DNA from: Scytonema tolypothrichoides VB-61278
GTDB lineage: Bacteria > Cyanobacteriota > Cyanobacteriia > Cyanobacteriales > Nostocaceae
NCBI RefSeq assembly: GCF_000828085.3
Contig: NZ_JXCA02000001.1
Location: 1,131,191-1,195,190 of the forward strand
Direction of reading: 5' to 3'
Length of the DNA stretch: 64,000 nucleotides
Shown here: in pieces, positions 17,926 through 21,304 of the stretch
Layout of the letters: every line of letters begins with the position of its first letter
Numbering within the stretch: the stretch's first letter is position 1
The notes under the pieces: model-generated
Told to the model about the DNA's origin: nothing
What the model saw: only the letters and a program-made list of their open reading frames with translations
Database searches by the model: none
Position numbers and translations under genes: made by a program

Positions 17926-18570
17926 GTGAGTACATTCCTATCTAGTGTCGCTGTCTTACTCTCGACTTTGGCTTTATTATGCAGTGGCTATACAGCTTAC
18001 CAAGTTTTCACCTTACAACAGACGTTGAATGTTGCAACTGCTGGTAATAAGAACGCCACCACTTCTACTCAAAAAACTTCCAGTCCAGAAACCAGTACTG
18101 TTCCTCCTGACAATAAGCCTAATCCATCAGAAGCGTCTTCATCTTCAACCACAACAGCACAATCACCAGCCACCACTGGTAGTGGTATTAAACCGGGTCA
18201 ATTTGTGCAACCTTCCTTTGGAAAGAAAGCAGAAGTAGAGTTACTCTCGGTAAAGCGGATTAAAGATCCAGAAACAGGAAACCGTGATGTCGTGAATGTG
18301 CAGATGCGTATCCGTCGCGTGGCTACGGATGGAATTAATCCTGGTGAATCTGTAGGAGTCTACAACACAACAGCACGTAATCCTGACACAAGCGAAACCT
18401 ATAAAGGAGTTGACATCAAACGTTCAACGGGTAGTGTTGATCTATCTTCTTTGCGTCCTCAAGCTTCGGCTGATGCTTATGTGTGGTTAAGGATTCCTGA
18501 TAGCGTTAACAGCATAGACGTTTTTGTACCAGATACAGCGGCATTTAAAAATGTGCCGGTTTCTAATTAG
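17926..18570 (+). CDS. Membrane-anchored hypothetical protein with Ser/Thr/Pro linker
   Basis: A 214-residue protein beginning with a GTG start. Residues 4-25 are a hydrophobic anchor, residues 40-85 a Ser/Thr/Pro-rich linker (SSPETSTVPPDNKPNPSEAS), and the remainder a beta-rich domain (EVELLSVKRIKDPETGNRDV, then MRIRRVATDGINPGESVGVY) resembling DUF4352-like extracellular domains. The layout suggests an outward-facing domain on a flexible stalk. No function can be assigned. A hairpin follows 28 bases downstream. Confidence 0.75.
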   Translation: MSTFLSSVAVLLSTLALLCSGYTAYQVFTLQQTLNVATAGNKNATTSTQKTSSPETSTVPPDNKPNPSEASSSSTTTAQSPATTGSGIKPGQFVQPSFGKKAEVELLSVKRIKDPETGNRDVVNVQMRIRRVATDGINPGESVGVYNTTARNPDTSETYKGVDIKRSTGSVDLSSLRPQASADAYVWLRIPDSVNSIDVFVPDTAAFKNVPVSN

Positions 18571-18598
18571 TCCGGAGTCTTTGTATGAACAACAAGAC

Positions 18599-18623
18599 CC
18601 CCGACTTATCAAATAAGTCGGGG
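18599..18623. terminator. Hairpin between convergent genes
   Basis: CCCCGACTTAT (18599-18609), loop CAA, then the perfect complement (18613-18623). It sits 28 bases after the stop of the upstream plus-strand gene and 115 bases beyond the stop of the peptide gene on the other strand. There is no U-run, so it may be a repeat element acting as a terminator. Confidence 0.6.
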
Positions 18624-18738
18624 ATCTCAAGCCCCCTGATTTTCACAAGTCTACGCAGGATTGCGATAGTGTGCCGAGATTTTATTGAGACGAATACCTC
18701 TACTGTTGCTTTTGCACACTATGGTAATCTAACTGAGT

Positions 18739-18936
18739 TTAATCAGCACCCACGCCAATTGGTATGCCAAGTATATTTCCCTTTACTGACACTTCAACTC
18801 CTGGCACGGCATCTTCTGGTAACAATATACCACCACCAGAGTTTGTACCTCCGACAACCGCCTGTAACTCCTCTGCTGTCAATTCTATCTTCTGTGTTTG
18901 GTTTTCTAGGTTATAGCTGGTTTTGGATTCTTTCAT
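18739..18936 (-). CDS. Double-glycine-leader peptide precursor (putative bacteriocin or RiPP) 1
   Basis: A 65-residue frame from ATG 18936. Residues 1-30 look like a double-glycine leader: polar N-terminus, then IELTAEELQAVVGG. The predicted mature part is 35 residues, starting TNSGGGILLPEDAV and ending LGIPIGVGAD, with no cysteine, so not a disulfide or lanthionine peptide. Leaders of this type are cut by C39 peptidase ABC exporters in the family. A TTG 13 codons upstream (18975) is an alternative start. The gene follows directly behind the second peptide gene on the same strand. No maturase or C39 transporter is in the window, so processing in trans is inferred. Confidence 0.6.
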   Translation of the reverse strand: MKESKTSYNLENQTQKIELTAEELQAVVGGTNSGGGILLPEDAVPGVEVSVKGNILGIPIGVGAD

Positions 18937-18994
18937 GATTTTTAAGATGGATCGAGTCAATAGGTTACTGTTCAAAAACCTTTATTTAACAGAA

Positions 18995-19201
18995 TTAAAC
19001 CTCAAGACCGATATTTCCAAGGTCTACGCTTACAACACCACCACTGATAGCCTGCATCTCAAGGTCACTCAACTCATCTGCCCATGCATCTTCCCATGAG
19101 CGATGATTGTTTGCAATGTTGGTATTTTCTTGCCGTGAGTGATTTTTGTCAGCAACGTTGGTATTGATTGCGGTTTGTTGTTGGTTGATGTTGCGATGCA
19201 T
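18995..19201 (-). CDS. Double-glycine-leader peptide precursor (putative bacteriocin or RiPP) 2
   Basis: A 68-residue frame starting at ATG 19201, seven bases after GAGGA, which is a good ribosome site. The N-terminal half is Asn/Gln-rich, then WADELSDLEMQAISGG gives a double-glycine leader and leaves a 13-residue tail VVSVDLGNIGLEV. That tail shares the pattern VSV-x-GNI-G with the predicted mature part of peptide 1 (VSVKGNILGI), so the two genes look related. The long leader and very short tail are unusual. It lies just upstream of peptide 1 and is probably co-transcribed with it. Confidence 0.6.
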   Translation of the reverse strand: MHRNINQQQTAINTNVADKNHSRQENTNIANNHRSWEDAWADELSDLEMQAISGGVVSVDLGNIGLEV

Positions 19202-19379
19202 GTGAATTCCTCGATAAATAGTATGTGTTTGATTGATGATTCGAGAATACCAAGTAGATACTGATGATTCTATCTATCGACAGGGTCAAAAAATGTCTTT
19301 TTTTTTTACATAAATCTCTATACGTAGACGGGTGTCGCCCGACTCTACCCACAAGCTAGGGTTTTTCTGTTACATCTCG

Positions 19380-19500
19380 TTACAAGGCTCTGCCTTGTAA
19401 TGTTTCTGTCAGAGGCTCAGCCTCCCGATTTGAGGGGAGGCTGAGCCTCTAGGTAATCGCATTCCCAGGCAGCAGCCCAGGAACGAGTCTGGGCAAGATT
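19380..19500. repeat. Dispersed palindromic repeat block, copy 1
   Basis: TTACAAGGC (19380-19388) and complement (19392-19400) form a hairpin with loop TCT; then a perfect 16-bp inverted repeat, 19411-19426 with 19435-19450 (core GAGGCTCAGCCTCC), and a CCCAGG/CCTGGG-type segment ending in GAACGAG. A related block lies at 21409-21530. The remaining bases of the 19202-19712 gap show no gene. Confidence 0.7.
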
Positions 19501-19712
19501 TTGAACTTAACAAGTCTACAATTCACATAATTGTCAATGTGTAAAGTGCGTAAGTCCTACAATCTACAAATTATTTTTTGATTATCTATCGAGATTCAGA
19601 CACTTCGTTGAGATCCTGCCAAAAAGCTAGGTTTAGTCTTGAATCTTAAGTGATAAGTCCTGAGTTGTAAGATATGTGTACTCACAATTCAGGACTGGAA
19701 ACTTAGTAGTTT

Positions 19713-20639
19713 TTACCTCATCGAATAGCGGTATTCTCGTCTTGACATAAACTGCCTGTATCCAGCGCGTTGAAAGGCGCGAATCATCGGTGCATTATTA
19801 ATATCAGCATCACTACGGATGCGTACAGCACCGTTGGACTTAAGGGTGAGGGTTCCTTGCTGTAGCAAATCGTTAACGTAGCCTTGTCCCCGATATTCGG
19901 GGACTACACCAATACACGCAATGATAGGTCCACCATCGTTTTCTGCTGGCATAATCAAACCAACAAGAGTACCGTCCTGGGTGTATGCTAGTTGCCACCA
20001 TGTCGGCTTGTACTTGAAAGCCTTCGACATATGAAAGCGTTGCAGTGCCTCTTGCTCTAAACCCAGTTTAGCTTGCTCATGCAAGATGGAACGATCGCGA
20101 GTTTGTGACGATACTTGCATCATGGCATGAATGAAAGCATTTTCACCAACCTCATTAAGCGAACGGAAAGTCAGCCGATTTGATGGCGTTATCTGAGTCT
20201 GAGTATCTTTCCACTCAAAACGAATCGTTTCCCTTTTTAGAGAGAATCCAAAGTTTTCCAACAGCTCAATTCGTTTCTCAAGATATGTGGAGTAGGGTGA
20301 TGGAATATCGAGTTGATACTCCATACTGTGCTTATCATGAAGGTGCAACTGTGTCAAGCTTTGTTGTAAAAGCTGTGTGCCGACTTCAAGATAGTTGGCG
20401 TTCCAAGGGAGTTCCAAAAAATCACAGATGAAAGGTTTGCCGAGTGATGGTAAACTCCAGTAAACAATACGCCCGACGAACTCTCCTGCTTCTTCAGCGA
20501 CAAAGCACCACTCAGGGCGAACGTAGCCTTCATCCCACATATCTCTTAAATAATTGAGAAAATGCTCGTTTAGCTCTGCTTGATTGCTGAAATTAGCGAA
20601 GACTTCCAGTTCCTCGCGGCGAATGGGGCGAATATCCAT
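19713..20639 (-). CDS. GNAT acetyltransferase, possibly two-domain
   Basis: A 308-residue protein. The C-terminal half has a clear GNAT acetyl-CoA site: IACIGVVPEYRGQGYVNDLL, with the RGQGY pyrophosphate-binding loop, followed by ADINNAPMIRAFQRAGY. The N-terminal half (MDIRPIRREELEVFANFSNQ, EWCFVAEEAGEFVGRIVYWS) also resembles a GNAT fold with a degenerate acetyl-CoA loop, so this may be a duplicated GNAT. Substrate is unknown. It diverges from a second GNAT gene across 113 bases, suggesting a shared control region. Confidence 0.85.
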   Translation of the reverse strand: MDIRPIRREELEVFANFSNQAELNEHFLNYLRDMWDEGYVRPEWCFVAEEAGEFVGRIVYWSLPSLGKPFICDFLELPWNANYLEVGTQLLQQSLTQLHLHDKHSMEYQLDIPSPYSTYLEKRIELLENFGFSLKRETIRFEWKDTQTQITPSNRLTFRSLNEVGENAFIHAMMQVSSQTRDRSILHEQAKLGLEQEALQRFHMSKAFKYKPTWWQLAYTQDGTLVGLIMPAENDGGPIIACIGVVPEYRGQGYVNDLLQQGTLTLKSNGAVRIRSDADINNAPMIRAFQRAGYRQFMSRREYRYSMR

Positions 20640-20752: not shown

Positions 20753-21304
20753 ATGATGAGTATAAACAGTTCTACAGATTTTGCGCTGGAACTTGCTGGT
20801 TACTCAGTAAGGCGACTAGAGCCAAATGATGAAGAAGTTCTTCAGCAGCTCTACGAACAGTGTACAGACTTTGCTTATCTTACAGAAGGGCATCCGCCCT
20901 CACCTTCTGCTGCTCGTGAGGAATTTCTCGCTGTTCCTGAAGGGAAAACTTTACAGGACAAATTTATGTTTGGTTTTTTCGACGTGCATAACGTCTTGGT
21001 GGGATTAATCGAAGCAATTCGGCATTATCCTGATGACAGAAGCTGGTGGGTAGGCTTGATGATGCTTGCTCCCCAAGAACGAGGCAAAGGTTTAGGCTCT
21101 AAGTTTTATAAGGCTTTTGAGCGTTGGGTATCAACGCATAAAGCGCAGCAGGTGATGCTAGCTGTTATTGAAGAGAATCAGCAAGGATTTCTTTTTTGGA
21201 AAAAATTAGGGTTTGAGGTGACACGTAAAACGCCACCTAGGAAATTCGGCAACAAAACGCACACGCTCTACGTTATGAAGCGAACTGTGAACACAACTGC
21301 TTAA
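20753..21304 (+). CDS. GNAT acetyltransferase
   Basis: A 183-residue single GNAT domain: VRRLEPNDEEVLQQLYEQC at the start, WWVGLMMLAPQERGKGLGSK as the acetyl-CoA loop (ERGKGLG) and VIEENQQGFLFWKKLGFE as the C-terminal motif. The start is the first ATG of an ATGATG pair at 20753. The substrate is unknown. Divergence from the 19713-20639 GNAT gene is notable because the two are not close homologues. Confidence 0.87.
   Translation: MMSINSSTDFALELAGYSVRRLEPNDEEVLQQLYEQCTDFAYLTEGHPPSPSAAREEFLAVPEGKTLQDKFMFGFFDVHNVLVGLIEAIRHYPDDRSWWVGLMMLAPQERGKGLGSKFYKAFERWVSTHKAQQVMLAVIEENQQGFLFWKKLGFEVTRKTPPRKFGNKTHTLYVMKRTVNTTA

Follow-up and report, generated by a model that had tools for sequence, protein, structure and literature searches.

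A lineage-specific tandem pair of double-glycine leader peptide genes in Brasilonema, and a candidate exporter with chaplin-associated relatives

Two short reading frames, each with a double-glycine leader, lie in tandem on one strand of a 64,000-nucleotide stretch of the genome of Scytonema tolypothrichoides VB-61278 (hereafter, the window). Are they genes, which exporter would handle their products, and what would those products do? An initial annotation, made from the sequence alone, proposed a small orphan bacteriocin or signaling locus that is matured in trans and whose two peptides have related tails. The frames and leaders of both peptides, termed A and B, are real. Their main features are as follows.

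18995..19201 (-): peptide A gene, a 68-aa precursor with a 55-aa leader ending ELSDLEMQAISGG and the 13-aa core VVSVDLGNIGLEV (from the ORF list, the motif test and the ortholog)
18739..18936 (-): peptide B gene, a 65-aa precursor from ATG with a 30-aa leader ending ELTAEELQAVVGG and a 35-aa cysteine-free core (same basis as A)
19089..19165 (-): imperfect tandem duplication inside the leader of A, period 39, 38-nt copies 79% alike
19202..19371 (-): upstream region of A, including GAGG, with few changes in Brasilonema bromeliae (by alignment)
18593..18629 (-): terminator-like hairpin 3' of B, 17 pairs and a short T-rich tail, by consensus match only; it is also part of a dispersed repeat

Both leaders match the pattern ELxxxExQAxxGG, and the parts that follow Gly-Gly are 13 and 35 residues long, as annotated. 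A lies upstream of B on the same minus strand, with 58 bases between them. B has an alternative start, a TTG at 18975, that would give 78 aa. On reading of the sequence, GAGG is located seven bases 5' of the ATG of A, which bears out the ribosome site previously noted for the upstream frame; no ribosome site is evident 5' of the ATG of B.

The tandem leader motif is far above chance. Within the window, the strict double-glycine motif is confined, among ORFs of 30-150 aa, to A and B, and 60 simulated windows (order-2 Markov) had a mean of 0.1 matches and a maximum of 1. It is highly improbable that A and B are chance ORFs with a leader-like stretch: the frames are short and offer little divergence on which to test them, but none of the 60 simulated windows had a same-strand motif pair within 500 bp, and A is preceded by a ribosome site. 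The same script, applied to 16 stretches of 19 kb each that were chosen in this genome around C39 genes and family matches, produced 11 further motif ORFs, two of which (L062 and L069) look like chance. Other tandem double-glycine peptide sets are present in the genome: four peptides with related leaders at C8:397.6k (L056 8649-9831 (+)) and two peptides at C6:572k (L057 9352-9767 (-)).

Double-glycine leaders are common among many peptides of the genus, and B also fits the motif ELX3E(I/L)X2(I/V)XG(G/A) as given in the available text of a published survey (PMC3140520); A fits except that it has M in place of I/L. Searches of NCBIfam and Pfam with A and B gave weak leader matches only, all below curated cut-offs. 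The bacteriocin leader model TIGR01847 comes closest, with 15.4 bits for B and 14.3 for A against a cut-off of 15.7. B scores 19.3 bits with the CCRG-2 RiPP model NF033456 (cut-off 24) and 14.5 bits with the CTB bacteriocin model NF038167 (cut-off 32), in both cases through its leader only, and A is listed for neither; thus, neither peptide is placed in these families. The cores are therefore without a described family in the two libraries.

The claim that did not hold is the tail pattern VSV-x-GNI-G, which the two mature peptides were said to share. The tails read VSVDLGNIG and VSVKGNILG, and pairing them by this pattern takes two gaps, one in each tail. In shuffle tests the likeness is not significant, with p values of ~0.76, 0.25-0.28 and 0.07 at gap-open costs of 11, 8 and 5, respectively. 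Moreover, of 13 other double-glycine tails, 7 score better with the tail of B than the tail of A does. Homology of the two tails is therefore rejected.

With no cysteine in either core, lanthionines and disulfides are not to be expected. In AlphaFold2 predictions the leader of A forms a long helix (mean pLDDT 79), and neither the core of A nor that of B takes on a fold; B is modeled at pLDDT 45. A promoter was sought in the region upstream of A, and none was convincing. A hairpin 5' of the ribosome site of A was rejected as a candidate element, because it folds no better than shuffled sequences (z -0.11; 86 of 200 shuffles as good). Rfam at a permissive threshold gave nine matches, all below gathering scores and mostly to microRNA models. 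Just 3' of B is a 16-nt inverted repeat (88%) at 18659-18674 and 18714-18729, and the peptide genes are flanked by two dispersed repeats, at 18586-18670 and 19369-19487, that have many other copies in genomes of the genus.

The initial annotation had made its reading depend on homologues with the conserved Gly-Gly in related genomes. These exist, with an ortholog pair found in only one other species, Brasilonema bromeliae SPC951 (taken here to be G389), where A is 94% and B 95% identical. B is thus present in two of the seven Brasilonema genomes compared, among which the present one is counted; the pair was not found in the other five. A scan of genome contigs gave B. bromeliae as the sole source of a relative of B. 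In a sample of 388 genomes of the order that excludes G389, B was detected in its own genome, together with seven weak matches (E 0.018-0.1) that we did not accept as relatives. A was detected in 6 of 217 genomes of the family: its own and G389 strongly, and four weakly (E 0.008-0.09) by the leader. Viral contigs contained no relatives of A or B, and plasmids gave no match.

In the Brasilonema genomes G388 and G393 the site of the pair is cleanly empty, and the flanks join directly; a segment of ~1.05 kb (18582-19632), bounded by a direct repeat, separates them in the window.

18567..18581 (no strand assigned): left copy of an imperfect 15-bp direct repeat bounding the segment that G388 and G393 lack (sequence reading, match limits)
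19633..19647 (no strand assigned): right copy of the same repeat, 12 of 15 bases alike (sequence reading, match limits)

G390 has ~90 other bases at this site, and in G391 and G392, where the pair was not found, the flanks are rearranged. The interval from the pair to ilvB holds two ORFs (19713-20639 and 20753-21304) that have no match in G389. The ilvB stretch itself is 95% identical to that of G389 and 88-90% identical to those of the other five Brasilonema genomes, which indicates that the two carriers of the pair are nearest to each other.

The two carriers differ at eight codons, mostly in or near the cores, with no indels. Seven of the differences are non-synonymous; thus, retention of the frames does not establish purifying selection on the protein. 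This leaves room for the reading that A and B are displaced precursor genes whose function is gone and that persist only because the species split recently. That the pair was not found in five of the seven Brasilonema genomes fits such decay, as does the degenerate duplicate that accompanies it in B. bromeliae and covers the 3' part of B with the adjoining flank (L108 1667-1781). However, both frames and both Gly-Gly motifs are intact in the two species, and ~190 bases, from the upstream region into the start of A, are identical between them. We consider a decaying remnant distinctly unlikely.

The genome-wide search for C39 transporters that had been called for detected 13 C39 loci that pass the cut-off (ten strongly, three weakly); the window contains none of them. 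For an orphan pair in such a genome it is natural to infer maturation in trans, and this part of the original proposal is supported.

One exporter gene can be named as the likeliest, G000:C2:157693-159966, although we put its being the right one at slightly below an even chance. Two hints point to it. The first is a short sequence at the upstream end of the segment.

19579..19628 (-): 50-bp relic matching the stretch just 3' of a C39 exporter gene in two other Brasilonema genomes

Of the six relatives, only G389 (96% of 50 bp) and G388 (91% of 33 bp) contain a match to this relic, a single one each, and its own genome has no other match. The two matches sit 12 and 42 bp past the stop codons of the orthologous exporter genes, and the orientation of the relic would place the exporter on the strand of A, upstream of it. 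The probability that a randomly chosen position lies no more than 100 bp from either end of any of 13 C39 genes is ~3e-4, before allowing for other looks. The second hint comes from G390: of all non-ortholog matches of A in the 217 genomes, the best, a weak one (E 0.008), lies there, 1.4 kb from the ortholog of the C2 exporter. Against the link, the pair occurs in B. bromeliae without the relic, the C2 exporter of the present genome has a different 3' flank, and leaders of this type are widespread in the genus.

Orthologs of this exporter are found in all seven Brasilonema genomes (six at 88-100%, and that of G388 by reading its locus). Since genomes in which the pair was not found have the exporter too, co-occurrence is uninformative. 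In the present genome, HlyD is followed directly by the exporter gene. Downstream of the G389 exporter is a partial second copy of the exporter C-terminal end (62% over 55 aa; L134 597-746 (-)), a sign of rearrangement at the 3' flank. Other exporters remain candidates for A and B, since HetC, according to the available text of PMC10986499, is still without a known substrate.

The tandem leader motif, the Gly-Gly motifs intact in B. bromeliae, the 13 C39 loci, the relic and the G390 match of A are together best explained if A and B are an operon of C39-exporter cargo matured in trans, which we regard as probable from the sequence comparisons. The two genes would be co-transcribed as a small operon of double-glycine precursors. 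A C39-peptidase ABC exporter whose gene lies elsewhere would recognize each precursor by its leader and presumably cleave it after Gly-Gly. Export would then release acidic, cysteine-free, glycine- and valine-rich peptides of 13 and 35 residues that act outside the cell. Leader-guided C39 export has precedents in EbfG1-4 with PteB (PMC4997328, PMC9981879) and in the precursors of PMC3140520, as far as the available texts of these papers describe them.

Such exported peptides might serve at the surface or in the matrix, as signals or as bacteriocins, and we place these candidate roles close together. The bacteriocin or signal view of the initial annotation, with A and B as small unmodified peptides, is a serious possibility that still falls well short of being probable. 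A has the length of a signal peptide and B that of a small bacteriocin, and both have cysteine-free cores in or near which most changes between the species fall. The leader type and tandem layout also resemble those of bacteriocin and signal precursors, judging from the leader matches and the available text of PMC3140520. Yet no immunity, receptor or regulator gene was recognized beside the pair in the ORF list, and the cores match no family in NCBIfam or Pfam.

A further option, beyond those of the initial annotation, is that the pair is former cargo of the C2 exporter, whose relatives adjoin chaplin genes. In G388, G389 and G393 the exporter locus has the order HlyD, chaplin, MauE-type protein and C39 exporter, with one further ORF in G389. 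The chaplin model PF03777 scores over its cut-off in 7 of the 217 family genomes and in 1 of the 388 genomes of the order sample; the same search found no chaplin in the present genome. In six of the seven genomes the chaplin core is preceded by a double-glycine-type leader, with GG in five and AG in G388.

L134 5123-5404 (-), L136 8101-8412 (-), L178 10260-10559 (-): chaplin domains (PF03777) behind double-glycine-type leaders
L159 8872-9144 (-), L193 6760-7032 (+), L194 7526-7840 (-): chaplin domains (PF03777) behind double-glycine-type leaders
L159 8385-8741 (-); L194 7044-7397 (-): GG-leader rodlins (NF041022) beside the GG chaplins of G374 and G467

A MauE-type gene adjoins all six of these chaplins, and HlyD and the C39 exporter do so as well in the three Brasilonema genomes; in G374, G467 and G492 no exporter or HlyD match is present within the 15-16 kb examined. 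G374 and G467 each encode another GG-leader peptide, which scores 129.8 and 109.5 bits, respectively, with the rodlin model NF041022 (cut-off 75). The seventh chaplin genome, G472 (L195 7262-7621 (+)), has an N-terminus that we read as a Sec signal and no MauE-type gene in 15 kb.

One of these chaplin cores, that of G389, was compared with plasmid records and is 67-88% identical to the best 15 of 17 matches, all from Streptomyces or near kin, and these matches include at most the last two residues of the G389 leader. Among the exporter loci surveyed (12 outside the genus plus the Brasilonema ones, among 20 stretches), a chaplin-type double-glycine peptide was found by anchors only in G393; the remaining loci have other double-glycine peptides, or none by the pattern used. 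Double-glycine chaplins are not named in the titles and abstract beginnings of the matches listed for chaplin or rodlin with double-glycine or cyanobacteria, nor in the matches listed for Brasilonema and bacteriocin.

B might be a relic chaplin, which we treat as a lead. It resembles the G389 chaplin with an E value of 2e-4 over leader plus core, and its core alone does so with p values of 0.014-0.031, uncorrected for several comparisons. With a chaplin-core HMM the core of B scores ~5 bits, a score that 18 of 1000 shuffles reach and several exceed; the B. bromeliae core is reached by 10 of 1000. Twenty other cores were given to the same HMM; 16 obtained a score, and B stands above them all. 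The PF03777 family model matches neither A nor B (E up to 10), nor the core of B (E up to 1), and the two conserved chaplin cysteines are absent from both cores. The core of A was also compared with rodlins (p 0.34-0.61) and chaplins (p 0.65-0.92); no likeness was found, and the chaplin-core HMM gave nothing.

These comparisons bear on a second role for the exported peptides, as coat or matrix material: B would be a shortened, diverged and cysteine-free chaplin-like peptide, with A as its companion, assembling on the filament surface. The double-glycine-type chaplins at the candidate exporter locus of three relatives and the likeness of B to one of them argue for it. A precedent is offered by the EbfG peptides of Synechococcus elongatus, which, in the available text of PMC9981879, are exported via a C39 protein and form amyloid. 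Against this stand the silence of the chaplin family model on B, the few bits and better-scoring shuffles of the core HMM, the lack of any chaplin likeness in A and the lack of a chaplin in the present genome. We therefore hold the coat reading only tentatively and think it rather improbable.

A broader proposal, which we judge somewhat less likely still, is that some filamentous cyanobacteria have a C39-exporter version of the Streptomyces coat, built from actinobacterial-type chaplins and rodlins that carry double-glycine-type leaders, together with an adjacent MauE-type redox protein. The pair would then be displaced and further reduced cargo of this exporter, with B as a minimal cysteine-free coat peptide and A as its companion. 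If this is true, cyanobacteria have redirected the amyloid coat of aerial Streptomyces hyphae (for rodlet biology, see the available text of PMC5314377) to a peptidase exporter, and a concrete function could be assigned to some of the peptides that are generally classed as bacteriocins. The setting of the relatives of the exporter, with its chaplins and rodlins, matters more than the pair itself.

Among known systems, the Streptomyces chaplins (PF03777) bear a weak likeness to the core of B in the first half of the chaplin core only, and differ from it in the cysteine pair and the second half, both of which B lacks. The CCRG-2 RiPP (NF033456) and CTB bacteriocin (NF038167) families resemble B in the leader residues around Gly-Gly, and in the leader only. 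EbfG1-4 of S. elongatus are alike in arrangement: the available texts of PMC4997328 and PMC9981879 describe neighboring small genes with GG leaders and a C39 exporter, PteB, that is needed for secretion. This likeness was read from gene layout and leader type, and the biofilm and amyloid role belongs to EbfG; for A and B it would be an analogy. The broadest comparison is with the 290 cyanobacterial double-glycine precursors of Wang, Fewer and Sivonen (2011), which, as the available text of PMC3140520 describes them, adjoin exporter or modification genes. The pair shares with these precursors the leader motif, the short length, the occurrence of several in a row and very variable cores, whereas it has no C39 gene in the window beside it. 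A and B are thus an orphan, lineage-specific addition to this large and mostly uncharacterized cyanobacterial double-glycine set, with a named candidate exporter.
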